Under the pieces are notes generated by a model. It saw nothing but the letters and a program-made list of their open reading frames with translations, was not told where the DNA came from and did not search any database. Source: Leptodontidium sp. MPI-SDFR-AT-0119 (Eukaryota; Ascomycota; Leotiomycetes; Helotiales; Leptodontidiaceae). Taken from it: DNA of 64,000 nucleotides. Shown here one piece after another: positions 128 to 10,174 of the stretch (its first letter is position 1; every line of letters starts with the position of its first letter). The translations under genes and the position numbers were made by a program. Location of the stretch: the NCBI GenBank assembly GCA_020726505.1, contig JAHLEZ010000022.1:930001-994000 (forward strand), in the 5' to 3' direction.

Positions 128-679
128 TGATGGTGGTGTGTTTTGTTGTTGTTGTTGTTTTTGTTGTGATATAAAGGGAAATCTCGCTTGAGGTGGATGA
201 CTGACTGGGGTCTTTGGCGTTTCGGTGCAAAGAGCATAGGATTGGCGTATTCACTCTCTCACTCACTCACCCACTCATGTGCTCTGCAATTTTGGTTTTG
301 GTTAAATTTCGTTTTCCTTTGGTACTCGTAAGCAAATTAATCATCAATCAATGATAAATCAAGCAAAGCAAGCAACGCAAGCAACGCAAGCAAGCGAGCG
401 AGCAAAAGAACCCCCCCCCCTCCCCCCGATTTCCAAACGCCTGTCCTGTGCTTAAAGCTCCATTACCCGTTTCCTGGTATACCGTAAGAACAAAAAAAAT
501 CAAGGCGAACCCCCCGCCCGGTACGCCGTCCATTTTCTTAAAGGATATTGAAACCCGGCCGCTCCCAGTTAGCATACGAGTACGAAAGTTGATTCGCGCT
601 AGCCATGTTCGTTCGACACCTGCTGAAATGCAAACGCCGAAATCAGACGGACAATTCACTAGGTCTTGGTGAGGAGTTA
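128..679. other. intergenic, 3' flanks
   Basis: Convergent 3' flanks of the partial gene and wc-2. It holds a GTT-rich run near 141-165, a CAAG/CAACG-type short repeat and a C tract (listed separately). No further gene is visible. Confidence 0.6.
361..427. repeat. AAGC-type microsatellite followed by C tract
   Basis: Imperfect AAGC/AACGC units run from 361 to about 405, followed by a C tract at 411-427 broken by a single T. It lies in the 3' flank of wc-2. Confidence 0.8.
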
Positions 680-2280
680 TCACACGGTTCCGGGTGTATT
701 GCTGGGTGGCGTGGGTGAGATGTGTGGTCCTTTCTTCTTTTCTTTCTTTGCCCAGCGGAGACCGCATGCGTTGCAGAGGGTCTTGGGTCCGGTTGGTCCT
801 TTCCGCCATTCGGGTGAATCGAGAGTTCCTTCATAGAGTGTAAGCACTGAAAACGTTGGAGATCTTGGAGACGCATACCACAATCCGTACAAACATACTC
901 ATCCGGTAGCTTGATCTTCTTCGTCTTCTTGTCTGCTCTTCCGTCTTTGTCGACAGGTATTGCGATTCCGGCATCTCCTCGAATAAGAACTGGGCTTTGA
1001 TCTCCGGTGCTGATTCCTCGACTTCTCTCTCCGTCTTGGTAGCGTAGACCCGTGAGCATCTCAATCGTTTCGATATGTGTAGCTCCTTCGTAGCGAGCCA
1101 TCTTATCATTGATCGAATCCGGTCTGCTTCCGGCATTGGCATCCGCCAGGTTTTGTGTTGTAAGAGCAGGATTGAGGGTCGGTTTCGCCGGCGGCGGCAT
1201 TGCTAAGGCATCTGGATTCATGGTGTGCATTGATGTGCTAACAGATCCCATGGTATCCGTCTCTTCGGAGGGCTGATCCGATCGGGCTTCTTGACTCTTT
1301 AACCAGTTCTGGTGTAATTCATCGGCTTCCTCTGCCTCTTCTCGTTTCAAGTCATCAATACGCTTCCTTAACCGCTCGTTTTCGATCTTATGTTCCAGAA
1401 ATGAGTCCAGTAGAGCTGCATTCTTGGTTGGATATGGTCGAGCCATCATAAAGAACCCTCGACAGAACCCGGATGCATTGACTGGTCCTGTATATTGTGC
1501 AGCCTCGGACGTAAGATGTGGATGGCCATGAGATTCGAATATGGTATAGGTATCGTCCTTCCTCCGAAATCGATAGAAGAACCGAAGAGGATTCCCACTT
1601 GCAATAGATTCATTGAACTCCCGTACAAAGATCCCACTGTCATCCGGATGTATGAAGTCGACTATGAATTTCCCCACTAGCTCATCTCGAGGATATCCCG
1701 TCAACTGCTCTCCACTCGGGGAGAGGTATACAATCCGACCGTCCGGAGTCAAGATGTGCAAGAAGTCCTTCAATTCCTCTACCACCCTCTGTGACCAGTT
1801 CCTCCTCTTTGTAAACTCCGTCAGTGTGCTGCCACCACTCAAAGTCGACTGTGCTCCAAACCCGGTAGGCAACGGTCCAGCGCCCGCACCAGTCATTGGA
1901 TTATCCACAGGACTTGATATCAGCCCTCCCGCCTCATCTCCGTCGCCGTTATGTTGGTGCGTGCCGGAGGTTATTTGCGCATAGCCCTTCTGCCCATTTC
2001 GGTTGTCGAGTCCGTTGAGATCGAGCTGGCTGGGCATGTTATCGTAATCATCAAGCATCCCGTCTTCTAGCATGCCGCTCATAGACGTGTCGTTTCCATT
2101 GGGAGCTGCCTTGAGGGGGAGATGATTAGCATGTCGCAGCGGCAAATGAAGAGGCATATCTACCTGCGAGGCTGACAGTCCCCCAGAAAGGCTGTCCATG
2201 GCGGCCAAGTTTGAATAGTACATGGACGGATCCATGTTGAGGGCGTTGGGATTCATCGGAGAAGCGTGCGAGAGGGACAT
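680..2280 (-). CDS. wc-2: White collar 2-like PAS/GATA photoreceptor partner
   Basis: Predicted WC-2, which pairs with the flavin photoreceptor WC-1 in the nucleus to activate light- and clock-controlled genes. Two exons, 2280-879 and 828-680, are joined across a 50-nt GTATGC...AAG intron at 829-878, giving 516 aa (Neurospora WC-2 is about 530). A PAS domain spans about residues 165-275 (from [20 protein letters not shown] onward). A C-terminal GATA-type finger is C464-x2-C467-x18-C486-x2-C489 with the core DSPEWRKGP and the tail [12 protein letters not shown] charged coiled segment follows the PAS domain (about residues 295-325). The intron cuts the glycine codon right after the second zinc cysteine, so an unspliced message reads a frameshifted, finger-less tail. 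It is divergent from rad50. The family is certain; the start is the first Met of the frame. Confidence 0.95.
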
Positions 2281-2973
2281 GCTCTATACAAGGTCGCATT
2301 CGAGGTGGTGAAGGCCAAGATGCCTTATGCGGACCTGTATAGTGAGAGTGGTACTGGTGTGGTGCTGTTGTGATCATAGCGAGGGAGCGAGCGAACGCAA
2401 GTGCAGTTGCGCCTGTGATATTGATTGAAGGTTTGGCTGGGGCTGGGTTGGGCCGGGTGTCGGGTGTCGGGGCACCAGGCCAGGGATCCGGCGGGAGAGT
2501 TAGTGTGTATGAGGTGGAGGTGAGGTGGGCTGGGCTGGGGTGTATTCGACCTCTTCCTGTAAGGGTGGACAGTGGACAATGGAGGGAATGATCGATCGCC
2601 TACGCGAGATGTCGCAGAGAGGTACAGTAAATTGAATCGAACTTAATTCCTTGACGAGGCTGCAGCCTTTTCCGTGAATGAATCGCCTCTTTGGGCTCGG
2701 CGACGGTTCTATTTATTGCCCATCGCTACAGCGGCGTTCTGCCAGCCAAATTTCTTTCCACTTTAGCGGTGTCACGTGCTCTGGAGCCTTGCAAACGCGA
2801 CTCTCCCGAATTAGGCGCGTCTCGCTTTCGGAGTCAACCTCGAAATCTACATTAAAGTCAACATCCTCCACCCCATCCCCTCCTCGCCCCCCAACCAAGA
2901 ATCTCGACAACACCGACCTTCTATGGTATCGACGAAGGAACCACACCAAAAAGGATAGGAAGTATCCGTCGAT
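2281..2973. promoter_or_regulatory. shared divergent promoter region of wc-2 and rad50
   Basis: A 0.69-kb region between two divergent start codons. It contains GATCGATC at 2590-2597 and TGATCATAG near 2371, GATC-core elements like those bound by White Collar complexes. No gene is supported here: an upstream in-frame extension of rad50 from about 2678 is possible in principle but has no conserved content. The assignment as a promoter is inferred from position. Confidence 0.55.
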
Positions 2974-5900
2974 ATGTAAGTAGTACCCTCCGCATTTCAT
3001 GCACCATTCACAGCTAACTATCACAGGTGTAAGTTCAACAAACGGATCTAGCCTGGATATTGCAATACTGACTGCGCTCTAGCTTCCATTACTAAACTCG
3101 ACATCAGAGGGTAAGATATCCCTTGCATACATCCATCTGCCAATAGCTAACCTTGCAACTACAGAGTGCGCTCCTTTGATTACATGGACCACCAAACCAT
3201 CCAATTTCATGCCCCTCTTACCCTTATTGTCGGAATCAACGGATCTGGCAAGACAGTACGTGGATCACATCATAGCTACAATACACCGTGTGTTAACATG
3301 CGCAGTCTATCATCGAATGCCTCAAGTTTGCTACGACTGGTATCCTCCCACCGAATAGCAAGGGTGGCGCATTCATTCATGACCCAAAGGTACATCCCCT
3401 CCACATAACGCATACCGCACTTACTGATTTTGCATAGCTATCTGGAGTTAAAGAAGTGATGGCGCAGGTCAAGCTTGGTTTCCATAACGCATCTCAGGCG
3501 AAGCTCGTCGTGAATCGAAGTCTCTCCCTCACCGTTGCGAAAGCTACCGTCAAGCAAAAGACGCTCGAATGCAACCTCCTCATCAAGGCCAGAAATGGTG
3601 AACGAACCTCCATATCCACAAAGGTTAGCGAGTTGGATAAGATTGTGCCACAACATCTAGGAGTCTCCCCTGCCATTCTAGAGGCTGTCATTTTCTGCCA
3701 CCAAGATGAATCTCTTTGGCCCATGAGCGAACCATCCAAACTCAAGGTCCGATTCGACGAAATCTTCGAGGCTCAGAAGTACACAAAGGCTATCGAAAAT
3801 ATTATCAAGATTGGCAAGCTTCAGAAGATCGAACTTGGCAAGCTCAAGATTCATGAAGCCAACTTCAAGGATCTCAAGGACAAGGCAGAACGCGTGAAGC
3901 AGAAATCATACGACCTACAGGCAGAAATCGATGCCCTCGAGATCAAGCAGCAATCCTTGAAGGTGGAAATCATCGAGGCTGAAAAGGTATCAGCTGAGAA
4001 GCATCGCCTTAAGGCTGAAGCCCATGGTCTTGCAGCCAAGTTGGAGCAGAAGCGAAACCATGCCGAGTTTCTTGAGAGCTCTCTGGAGAGTTTGAGAACC
4101 AATTTGGTGGAGCTTAAGGAATCCGATGAGTGGCTTGAGTCGACTCTTAGCCAGTATGAAGAGCGCATGGCTCAATATCGAGAGCAAGAGAACAGCTACA
4201 TCGAGCAGTATCAACAGCTTCTCGACGAAGCCAAGTCCTGCCGAGGTCGCATCTCTCAGAAGGAGATAGAGCAGGGACAGCATCAGGCTACGAAGCAGAC
4301 TTTTGAGCAGAACTTGGTTCAACGTGTTAATCTTATCCAGGAGACTGCGCGAGAGTATTCCCTTCGTGGCTATGACGGCGATCTTGACGATAGCCAGATC
4401 AGCGACTTCCTGCAGAGAGTTGACAAGCTTCTTCGGGATAAGGGCCGTGAATTAGAGAGTGTGAAGAAGGCCACCGCTGACGAGTCGCGACAAACCCAAA
4501 GCACTTTGACGCAGCTCGACAATCGAAAGGCCACCCTCAACCAGCAAAAAGTCACTGCTAGCCAGGCAATCACGGCAAATGACAAGAAGATCCGATCCAG
4601 ACAAGCTGAGATGACAAACGTCCACATGGACGAAGGGGCAAAGGCAAAGCTTGATGCTGCTCTCGGCGATGCGGAAGAACGTCTGACAAAGGCTAATAGT
4701 GACTGGGATGCAGCTTCATGGGATCAAAACCTGAAGGTCGAAAAGGCAAATCTCAAGGAATTGGAGCATGAGGCCACCAGATTGGGCGAGGAGCTTTTCC
4801 AGATCAACAAATTGGCCAAGGACCGCGCTGCACTCGAATATGCAAAGAAGGAGGCAAAGAGTGCCAGCAAGTCCCTCGAGACCATGGTGTCTACGCACAA
4901 GGATCAGCTAAACGATTTGATTGGTGAAAACTGGACCCCTGATAACCTTCTGGAGGAGTACGAAGCCGTCCTCGAGCAACGAACTCGCACCCTCAAGGAC
5001 CTGAAGTCCCAGCAAGATTCCGCCGTCCAACAGCTCACGCAGACTGAATTCGAGCTCAAGACAGCCCGCTCAACTGTCACGAAGAAGAAGGCTGAGCTGG
5101 CAAAGAATCAAACCAAGGTCCTTGCCTCCATCACTGATGATCAATTCAATCCAATCACCTCACTGGAGCAATTCAAGGAGGAGTATGAAGCTTTGAAGAA
5201 GGATTACGCCGACCACAAAAACGGTTTAGCTGGCACAAGTGCACTCTTGAGCATGTACACCCAATTTCTCACCTCGGTCAACTCAAAGGATTGCTGCCAG
5301 CTTTGCGAGCGAGCTTTTACCGACCAGAAGCAGCGTCTCCATGCAGCAGCGAAGCTAGAGAAGCTGGTGGCTAAGCAAGACGAGGCTGACAAGAAGAAGG
5401 ATTTGGAGGAAGTTGAGGGATTGTTCAAGACAGCTGAGGCAGTTCGTCCTCTTTACGACGTTTGCATGAAGCTACGTGACATCGAAATTCCATCTCTTGA
5501 AAAGGAAATCAAGCGACTGGAGGCTGAGAAGACTTCCCGGGTTTCAACCACCGAACGGCAGGATCGGTTGTTCAATGATGAAGAATCCGCCAAGAGAGAT
5601 GTTGAGGCCCTGAGCAAGACTGTTAGCGATATCGCCTCATACAATCGTGAAATCTCCAAGCATGAGAAAGAGATTACCCGGCTTGCATCACAAGAGACTT
5701 TCTCTAGCTCTATGTCCATTGAGGAGATTCGCGAAAAGTCCGATGCCTGCAATGGTAAGATCAGAATTCTCAAGAGCAAGACCGAGAAGATGGATGCAGA
5801 CAAGGAAAGTGCAAGAGTCGAAATTGTTACTTTGGAGAAGCAAGTTGGAAACTTCTCCCAACAACTTGCCAGTGCCAAGCATCTCTTGGAGAAGAAGCAG

Positions 5901-7216
5901 ACCCTTGCTGTCGCAATTGAGGAACTTCGCGACTCTAACAATCAACAACGCGGCGTCATCAGCAAGGCTGACAGTGAGCTTGAGTCCCTTGAGCCCCAGT
6001 TTGCCAAGGCCACTGCCCAGCATGAAGATGTTCAGCGACGAGGCAATGCTAAGGCCAAAGAGGTTCAAGCTGACAAGGACAATCTCTCCCGAACCGTCAA
6101 TCGATTCAAGCTCGTTGAAGATGCTATCAAGTCTTACATCGAGAATGATGGACCAGGAAAGATTGAGGCTTGTGAGCGATCGATCAAGCTTCTCAAGAAG
6201 GAGCTGGATCGCAACGAAAAGGAAACCCTTCAAGTCACTAAGAAATCCAATGACCTGAAGACTCAACTCGCGGATGGTGATAATACCAAGAGAAGCATCC
6301 AAGACAACATCAGGTTCCGAAAGTCGGTCAAAGATCTAGAAACTGTGAACGATGATATCGCTGAACTGGAGACCCACAACGCCACCGACGACTACCAGCG
6401 ATATCTTCGTGAAGCTAATGCCGCCGACAAGCGTCTTGCAAAGCTGACTGCTGAGCGAGGTCCAATCATCGGATCCATGCACGCCAAGGATGAAGACCTT
6501 GGAAAGATCATGACTGAGTGGGAAATCGACTACAAGGATGCTGCCGCCAACTATCGCAAGGCCCATGTTGAAGTTGAGACTACCAAGGCTGCGATTGATG
6601 ATATGCAGAAGTGCTCCAAAGCACTAGACAATGCTATCATGCAATTCCACAGTGTCAAGATGGAGGAGATCAACAGCATTGCTGCTGAGCTTTGGCAAAA
6701 GACATATCAAGGCACCGATGTGGACACTATCATGATCAAGTCCGAGAATGACAACCCATCAGCATCTACGAGAAGAAATTTCAATTATCGTGTCGTCATG
6801 GTCAAGCAGGAGGCTGAGATGGACATGCGTGGTCGTTGCAGTGCTGGTCAGAAAGTTCTGGCTTGCATCATCATTCGTCTTGCTCTCGCGGAGTGTTTTG
6901 GAGCCAATTGTGGAGTAAGTTCTCCTTCTTTGATTACATCGTTTCCTACTAACAAATTTCCAAGGTCATCGCTCTTGACGAACCCACTACCAACCTGGAT
7001 CAGGATAACATCAAGGCTCTGGCCCAGTCACTACACTTGATTATCGAGAGTCGTAGACACCAGCCGAACTTCCAGCTGATCATCATCACCCACGACGAGG
7101 AGTTTTTGAAGGAGATGAAGTGTTCCGATTTCACCGAAACATACTACCGCGTTTCGAGAAACGCTGCGCAGAAGAGTGAGATTGAGAGACAGAGCTTGAC
7201 GGATTTCATGGGATAG
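2974..7216 (+). CDS. rad50: Rad50 DNA repair ATPase
   Basis: SMC-like ATPase of the Mre11-Rad50-Nbs1 complex: double-strand-break sensing, resection, telomere and checkpoint functions in the nucleus. Best model has seven exons: 2974-2975, 3027-3028, 3083-3110, 3165-3255, 3306-3389, 3438-6914 and 6965-7216, giving 1311 aa (yeast and human 1312). Walker A GINGSGKT is at residues 34-41; long coiled coils flank the zinc hook C689-Q-L-C692; the signature region [11 protein letters not shown] lies near residue 1197; Walker B and D-loop [11 protein letters not shown] start near 1230; a His-loop ITHDEE follows. All later junctions keep phase and have CTAAC- or CTGA-type branch sites. The start is odd: A-T ends one exon and a 2-nt exon G-T is flanked by two complete introns, restoring Met-Ser-Ser-Ile-Thr-Lys-Leu. 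Treating 2976-3082 as one intron instead gives a frame without a conserved start. Confidence 0.96.
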
Positions 7217-8093: not shown

Positions 8094-10174
8094 ATGTCGT
8101 TCTGCATACCATGCCAATCATTCGGAGCCTGGATCCTCACCAAACGTGTCGAAAATCTCGCACGATACTTCAAGACTTCGTATGACATGAAATGGGAGGC
8201 AGCAGATGAGGCTGGCAAAGACCCTCGACTAGCATTTCAACACCATGCAGATGACAATGAGCTCTTAGAAGCAGCCAAGGCTGGCTGTCCCCTCTGTGGC
8301 CTTCTCCAGGAGCTCCGATCAGCTCGATTGCTGGATCGGATTCATTCTCAAAATGCCGGTAGCTCTAGACCCTTCAAGTTTCAAATATCCCCTGCAAGAA
8401 TAAATACAAGTCTACGTTACATCAGTATCGATAATTCAGAATCAGTTGAATTGGAGATCTACTCGCGAAACTCGGTTTCGGATATTTGGGGCTCAAAGGA
8501 CCACCATCCCACCCACCCACTGCTTGCTGGTACGGTGGATTGGATTAATATCCGGATCAGAGAGTGCGTGAGCGATCACGAAGAGTGTAACCAGCAAGTC
8601 AATCCATATGTTCCTACCAGGCTCCTGCATGTTGGCCAAGAAGATGGATCGGAAGAGCCATATCTTGTGGAAAAGGACGACATGGTCTTCGTCGAAAATC
8701 TTCATACCTCGCTACCATCTGGTGGGGCGACAACTCCTATTCTTTACGCGGCTCTGAGCCACTGTTGGGGAACGACGGCACACTGCAAAACCACAAAGGC
8801 TACACTTTCTGAGAGAAAGGCCTGTATCCCAATGTCAAGTCTCAACAGAACTTTTGCAGATGCGGTGACGGCGACCCGCGCCCTTGGTCTGAAATATCTA
8901 TGGATTGATTCTCTGTGCATTATACAAGACTCAGTACAGGACTGGGAGAAGGAATCTGCTACCATGTGCTGGGTGTATGGAAGTGCTTATGTCAATATTG
9001 CTGCAAAATCAGCTAGTGATGGTGATACAGGATTCCTCCATACAAGACCGATTGTGGATATGTGTAGTATGAAACCGGCGGCTGGAAAAACGAATTGTCT
9101 ACTTGGCGACTTCTGGATAAGACCTGAACGCAGAGAGTCTCAATCACAGACAGACAGCAAGCTATCTAGCCGGGCATGGTGCTACCAAGAGATGCTGCTC
9201 ACACCACGCATTCTTAGCTTCGAGGCCAACCACATCACGGTGGAATGCCGACTAAGTTTCAGAGCAGAAGGGGACCAACGACCGAGATTGAGAGGGTTTG
9301 GGGATACGAAAAAAGAAAATTTCTCTCGGATAGTGACACAGCCCATCACCAGTGACGAAGAACGGCGAATTGCATTCACCACATGGAAACTAATCGTAGA
9401 GGAGTACTCCGGTAAAGACTTGACTTTTGAAAGGGACAAACTCCCTGCTATCTCTGGTGTAGCGAGTCAGTTTGGGGCGGCCATCAAAAGTAGGTATCTT
9501 GCTGGTCTATGGGAGGGTGACCTTCTTGGGAGTCTTTGCTGGGTATCAATTGCACACGAAATCGAAGTAAAGGCCGGGACTTACAGAGCGCCAAGTTGGT
9601 CGTGGGCTTCACAGGTCAGGAATTCCCCGCCTTGTCTTCTCAAAGCCTTGGGGAGCCGAATCCCATTGATTCGTGACCTTTCATCAATCTCCTGACATCG
9701 CGGCTGGATATTTGGGTATCTAAAAACACGTGCTAATATTTAAAATAGGTCTCAGCTGTATATTATTACCTATTTGCAACAGATACCTGGGACGCCGAAA
9801 TCCTCGACTGCTCTGTAGATTTGGTGTCCGATGAATATGGGCAAGTGAAAGACGGTTCAATAAGTCTTCGCGCTACAGTTTTAGCAGGTACATTGACTCT
9901 AACGCCATTTGTTGATCCTGACGCGAATCGGCCATGGTATATGTTTTCCACGGGAGACGACGAGACCGCCCCAGTTTACTGTCCCCTTTTCCGTCTTGAT
10001 GACCTAGCGAGGAATTTCTCTGGGACGGTTCAGTCGTGGATGTGTCACTTGGGAGACGGTAGAGTTCTTGTTCTGAAGAAGTTGGATGGAGGTCTGTATC
10101 AGAGGTTTGGTTTCTTTTGGGGGTGGGACTATGACTGGAGTTGTGTGGAGCGGGTTGTGGTTACAATTATTTAG
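8094..10174 (+). CDS. HET-domain protein (heterokaryon incompatibility type)
   Basis: Fungal HET-domain protein of 648 aa. Proteins with this domain trigger programmed cell death in vegetative incompatibility, and many paralogues have unknown partners. Two exons, 8094-9614 and 9749-10174, are joined in phase 0 across a 134-nt intron (GT...TAG, branch-like TGCTAAT). A CPLC motif lies in the N-terminal third. The HET domain starts near residue 218 with YAALSHCWGTT, continues through ALGLKYLWIDSLCIIQD and YGSAYVNIAA, and ends around SSRAWCYQEMLLTPR. YRAPSWSWAS sits just before the intron, as is common in this family. The longish intron has a weak donor (GTCAGG), so retention would truncate the protein by about 115 residues. 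No fused STAND or ankyrin module is seen. Confidence 0.92.

Follow-up and report, generated by a model that had tools for sequence, protein, structure and literature searches.

The rad50 gene of Leptodontidium sp. MPI-SDFR-AT-0119 raises the question of how a start codon is assembled if its bases lie in different exons, one of which would measure only two nucleotides. The gene is located in a stretch of 64,000 nucleotides (positions 930,001 to 994,000 of contig JAHLEZ010000022.1), which is called the window here and in whose numbering all positions are given. A sequence-only reading had proposed that an intron splits the start codon and that the G of AUG comes from a 2-nt exon. The coordinates and letters of this proposal were found to be exact, and the joined frame is open over all 1311 residues. 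The features of the locus are compiled in Table 1. Both rad50 and the stretch itself were found in at least one place each in the 77-Mb assembly (69 contigs).

Structure of the rad50 5′ end

Table 1. Features of the rad50 locus, as predicted from the sequence, and of the genes next to it (window positions; a slash marks a splice junction).
Feature	Position	Strand	Remarks
PAS-domain protein, divergent from rad50	643-2280	-	Pfam PAS_3
uORF, 11 codons (MVSTKEPHQKG, stop)	2923..2958	+	presumed 5′ leader, out of Rad50 frame
rad50 coding region	2974..7216	+	1311 aa, six introns, one stop at 7214-7216
Exon 1 end (AT)	2974..2975	+	start codon bases 1-2
Intron 1, 51 nt	2976..3026	+	donor GTAAGT, branch site GCTAAC, acceptor CACAG
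2-nt exon GT	3027..3028	+	G of AUG and base 1 of codon 2 (Ser, T/CT)
Intron 2, 54 nt	3029..3082	+	GTAAGT, ACTGAC, CTCTAG; phase 1, within codon 2
Exon 3, 28 nt	3083..3110	+	starts CTTCC; remainder of codon 2, S-I-T-K-L-D-I-R, two bases of next codon
Intron 3, 54 nt	3111..3164	+	ordinary
Remaining rad50 introns	3256-3305, 3390-3437, 6915-6964	+	
HET (heterokaryon incompatibility) domain protein, adjoins rad50	8094-9695	+	Pfam PF06985

Joining 2974-2975 to 3027-3028 and to the sequence from 3083 onward yields ATG-TCT-TCC, which translates to M-S-S and is followed by I-T-K-L. The double-spliced junction string reads ...GTCGAT/GT/CTTCCATT. The encoded protein is a full-length match to the Rad50 family TIGR00606 (552 bits, cut-off 453.75, residues 3-1306 of 1311), and its residues 1-200 align from residue 1 with the solved structures PDB 5da9, 5dac, 7zr1, 9bi4 and 9q9h. 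Near the N-terminus it contains the motif K-L-x-I-x-G-x-R-S-F, whose residues I, G, R, S and F do not vary among 14 aligned Rad50s. According to the joined frame, the alignments and the N-termini of relatives, M-S at the conserved Rad50 start requires the GT exon. Judged from its sequence, the start region of rad50 very likely includes a 2-nt exon.

Translation could alternatively begin at Met18 (MDHQTIQF...), the next methionine in the Rad50 frame. The upstream introns would then belong to the 5′ leader and the 2-nt exon would be irrelevant to the protein. As Met18 lies past the first conserved motif, such a start loses K-L-x-I-x-G-x-R-S-F together with the residue-1 alignment to the solved structures, and it appears extremely improbable.

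The donors, branch sites and acceptors that had been named for 2976-3026 and 3029-3082 were confirmed letter by letter. The signals of both introns match the Aspergillus nidulans consensus GURWGY / RYURAY / YAG, as it is given in PMC12403724. A point against this assignment is the T at position -1 of both donors, where G is usual; for Aspergillus fumigatus, a G at this position is reported in 79.9% (PMC12940212). By its sequence, an exon of two bases that is flanked by two canonical introns belongs to the ultra-small exons (1-2 nt). Four of the six rad50 introns (2976-3026, 3029-3082, 3111-3164 and 3390-3437) have a length divisible by three, so that the frame would be kept upon their retention. 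In-frame stops are present inside introns 1 and 2.

Splicing and the start codon

In the unspliced DNA, the triplet A-T-G is contiguous at 2974-2976, where the first G of intron 1 completes it. As intron 1 and the GT exon both begin with G, an AUG exists before and after splicing. The earlier idea that splicing creates the AUG had to be given up for this reason, and the related idea of a partly spliced mRNA without a start does not hold either: the AUG stays in the unspliced and in both partly spliced forms, and what differs is an early stop. Retention of intron 1 places UAA immediately behind the AUG. Retention of intron 2 alone results in AUG-UGU-AAG-UUC-AAC-AAA-CGG-AUC-UAG, i.e., a stop after seven further codons. 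Skipping of GT, which equals the removal of one 107-nt intron, leaves AUC in the place of the start triplet. That translation depends on splicing was nevertheless a sound part of the sequence-only reading; the route leads via stop codons, or via AUG loss by skipping, and a corresponding effect in the cell may follow.

It is considered highly probable from the sequence that the rad50 5′ end consists of two short canonical U2 introns around the 2-nt exon GT, which would be spliced successively and would both have to be removed for Rad50 to be made. Intron 1 would interrupt the start codon (AT/G) and intron 2 codon 2 (T/CT). Both would be recognized by intron definition and excised one after the other, in free order, and the AUG would give Rad50 only once both introns are out. 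Because misspliced forms contain early stops or lose the AUG, the output of Rad50 should depend on correct double splicing, while unspliced forms may be silent or degraded. The view that a 2-nt exon rules out a simultaneous removal of both introns is supported as a deduction.

Uniqueness of the splice model

Splice models were enumerated over 2701-3082 with the acceptor at 3082, introns of 40-120 nt, an internal exon of at most 30 nt, and a branch site and an in-frame AUG as requirements. At 4/4 donor thresholds, the model with the 2-nt exon was the sole one with an in-frame AUG. Together with the alignment to solved Rad50 structures, this bears out the claim that the conserved N-terminus needs the three-part join.

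A different product would arise if intron 2 alone were removed, as 3027-3082 with a donor (GTGTAA) that lies two bases further upstream, and if translation started at AUG 2999 inside intron 1. An open frame for this exists and CACAG/GT resembles an exon end, but GTGTAA is poor compared to the consensus, with GTAAGT only two bases off, and its donor score is under the lowest threshold of the enumeration. The same RNA would also carry the AUG-UAA of position 2974 upstream, and the N-terminal extension would be unlike any canonical start. Use of AUG 2999 is therefore rated as very unlikely.

The removal of a single 107-nt intron (2976-3082) would require an in-frame AUG far upstream and would provide Rad50 with a long N-terminal extension. 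Donor and acceptor of this intron are strong, and no stop interrupts the frame as far upstream as an AUG at 2678. This AUG is outside the enumeration, which begins at 2701, and was covered by a separate scan of GT donors: 16 of them (any GT, 2281 to 3042) have an in-frame AUG when joined to 3082, with only that of the 107-nt intron matching the consensus. However, AUG 2923 is out of frame, and the distance from the sole in-frame AUG to the junction is 298 nt, which implies a 99-residue extension, whereas 52 of the 228 relatives listed exhibit a canonical M-x-x-I start. The 107-nt intron would furthermore pair distant sites over nearer ones, contrary to intron definition. Although the gene model of Cadophora gregata (see below) seems to use the same two sites, with an upstream in-frame AUG near the position of the uORF in the window, a single 107-nt intron is regarded as unlikely.

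The arrangement with the 2-nt exon is also rare by chance. Dinucleotide shuffles of 2861-3068 (last 14 bases fixed, 2000 per threshold, three thresholds), a span shorter than the 2701-3082 enumerated, yielded no solutions with an exon of at most 6 nt (0, 0 and 0), any two-intron solution in 0, 0 and 2 cases, and single-intron solutions in 5, 41 and 129 cases. On both strands of the 64-kb window, two consensus introns 0-4 nt apart occur in one instance, which is the rad50 start, and they occur in none of 20 shuffles of the 64-kb window (0/20). The exact pattern ATGTAAGT-N(30-60)-AGGTGTAAGT has one occurrence in the 77-Mb assembly.

Relation to stwintrons and ultra-small exons

In stwintrons, as they are defined in PMC6616335, an external intron has one of its consensus elements split by an internal one. 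Fungal [D] and [A] stwintrons resemble rad50 in that two short introns at one place are removed successively (PMC6616335, PMC5639578, PMC8469720, PMC12403724), and [D1,2] stwintrons are reported to be mis-spliced as a single long intron (PMC12403724). In rad50, unlike in the stwintrons described there, no element is interrupted and an exon is left between the introns. All six splice elements of introns 1 and 2 are intact before splicing, so the comparison with stwintrons, which had been drawn before, fails at the uninterrupted donors, branch sites and acceptors. For the same reason, the sequence permits either order of removal, and the rad50 case is grouped with ultra-small exons and not with stwintrons. 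Stwintron parses of the locus ([D1,2], [D2,3] and acceptor-split) were inspected by eye and rejected, with no split donor or acceptor being restored by one removal.

Among ultra-small exons, the single-nucleotide exon of Fusarium CYP621A comes close to rad50, as it also lies between two introns, is missed by gene models and is needed for a conserved motif. In contrast to the 2-nt exon in the start codon of rad50, which is known from sequence alone, it measures 1 nt, is situated in the coding interior (PKG motif) and is documented by transcript reads (PMC12940212). The single-nucleotide exon of Arabidopsis APC11 likewise has two flanking introns and is below the size for exon definition; its authors prefer intron definition with a successive removal of the introns (PMC4674806). 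The APC11 exon differs in comprising 1 nt, in belonging to a plant and in having been studied with reporter constructs, while that of rad50 comprises 2 nt, is fungal and was read from genomic letters (PMC4674806). The Trichoderma virens Xlr2 microexon is another case from a filamentous fungus in which inclusion alters the product. It is alternative and glucose-dependent (PMC11121469), and is not known to form part of a start codon. Within titles and abstract openings of the open-access literature, no spliceosomal split or interrupted start codon with such an exon was found, and nothing relevant on rad50 with an intron or micro-exon. A search of the open-access literature for an AUGUAA start-stop yielded no match.

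Gene models of close relatives

Among the matches listed, the nearest Rad50 proteins are those of Cadophora sp. M221, C. gregata, Oculimacula and Rhynchosporium, which most likely places the fungus close to Cadophora within the Helotiales. The gene model of Oculimacula yallundae (P0003, ...GIEGDIITPRIGSVSPANGSS...) aligns with window position 2961 joined to 3027 and reads into the GTAAGT of intron 2. The alignment score is 77, compared to a maximum of 50 in 300 leader shuffles, and the 2961-3027 join was added to the six window products tested only after P0003 had been inspected. Further on, P0003 also matches the terminal part of intron 2 that includes the branch site. This match would place the Oculimacula acceptor directly before GT, with GTAAGT following (AG/GT/GTAAGT), as far as can be deduced from a gene model.

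The model of C. gregata (P0002) exhibits MVSSEVQYTKDRKYPSS followed by SSITKLD, and the exon-skipped product of the window reads KDRKYPSI followed by SSITKLD. From its sequence, P0002 appears to join the donor of intron 1 to the acceptor of intron 2. Without the conserved core, its leader has a score of 41, compared to at most 44 in shuffles (mean 23), so that the match rests on the junction position. By its spacing, the start of P0002 is probably the AUG that corresponds to the uORF AUG of the window. The two starts share only M-V-S; the AUG is one base out of frame in the window and in frame with the skipped junction in C. gregata.

The M221 model (P0001) shows 96% identity over residues 1-130 and again over 140-700. 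Its first 25 residues match window positions 2266-2343, more than 600 bases upstream, with a score of 127 (at most 46 in shuffles); this is the region around the beginning of the divergently oriented PAS gene. A leader from so far upstream is expected if gene finders miss the true start. Rhynchosporium P0004 is barely higher than its shuffles in the same region (36, shuffle maximum 33), and the leader of Drepanopeziza P0008 reaches only 35 against the window, below the shuffle maximum of 47. Based on these gene models, rather than on DNA, the 2-nt exon is likely common to the near relatives. Searches of viral contigs with the window protein and the 14-Rad50 alignment yielded no DNA of relatives, and genome contigs searched with the 14-Rad50 alignment gave one distant match in a Chlorobium MAG, which was not used. 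With the first 124 residues of Rad50 as query, the best match had 65% identity, and none was of this lineage with a joined start, which counts against the model.

N-termini of public Rad50 records

For a broader comparison, 228 relatives were listed, comprising the best 120 of 831 matches and 108 more from the best 120 of 747. Among these 228, a canonical start is found in 52, M-S with an upstream extension in five, an unrelated leader in 59 and a start at the codon-2 slot in one. The remaining 111 were set aside as they lack the core pattern within the first 350 residues, which is explained by the pattern fixing the residues allowed after the codon-2 slot. The set-aside records include models that break elsewhere (e.g., P0021, P0024, P0068, P0083), several models whose first residues stem from the exon downstream of intron 3 (...VRSFD; e.g., P0080, P0097, P0106) and canonical Schizosaccharomyces starts (P0095, P0107); many others start well downstream.

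An unrelated leader thus precedes 59 of the 117 listed records with a recognizable N-terminal core. In all 59 (59/59), the codon-2 slot holds one of four residues (A in 30, S in 20, P in 6, T in 3) that together have a background of 30%. Such residues correspond to codons of the form N/CN, as is predicted by the position of intron 2. Of the 20 listed leader records with S, 12 have R before it (background 5.5%), three have K, two have V, and S, L and I precede it once each. R before S is the reading of AG/G-T, which the position of the intron 1 acceptor predicts; in some species, R-S leaders could also be produced by a lone intron at AT/G. Since the species are related and not independent, binomial values for these leader counts are only a guide. 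Penicillium, Aspergillus, Talaromyces and Pseudogymnoascus each have both kinds of leader among the records listed. Acceptors on either side of the unit of 2-nt exon and intron 2 would explain this coexistence within one genus, with the introns themselves unmoved.

The leaders were also inspected for their capacity to encode a branch site before the acceptor. CTRAC can be encoded by 13 of 28 A-ending leaders (the 30, minus two with fewer than six residues; null 2.8, 0/1000 draws as high), a test that cannot separate intron 2 from intron 1. For the R-S leaders (the 12, minus four in which R is preceded by fewer than six residues), the result is weak, with 3/8 encoding CTRAC (null 1.2, P 0.12) and 5/8 encoding looser branch sites (P 0.045). 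Judged from these sequences, the leaders in 59 of 117 listed records apparently reflect systematic misannotation at an intron that lies within codon 2.

Canonical starts occur in some Aspergillus records (P0025, P0027, P0031, P0032) as well as in P0101, P0109, P0112, P0113, P0114, P0118, P0119, P0305 and P0306; the latter nine presumably belong to Sordariomycetes. An ancient origin of the 2-nt start-codon exon, with the arrangement AT-intron-GT-intron-CN in many Pezizomycotina outside the Sordariomycetes, is conceivable, its chance being put at slightly less than even. If ancient, a DNA-repair gene would have kept for a long time a start codon that can be used only once two introns have been spliced out, AUG-UAA would represent the unspliced default next to a skipped form without AUG, and the odd starts of many public Rad50 records would be accounted for. 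The intron positions in the rad50 gene described here predict the true starts of the leader-bearing records.

Significance and neighboring genes

The ultra-small exon would sit in the one codon where skipping deletes the start, and it would do so in a core DNA-repair gene. The rad50 start may serve as a natural reporter for the order in which near-adjacent introns are removed. On the upstream side, a GATA-like zinc-finger sequence was recognized by eye at 680-892, in another frame, where it continues the divergent PAS gene; this PAS/GATA-like gene at 643-2280 is presumably white-collar-2-like.
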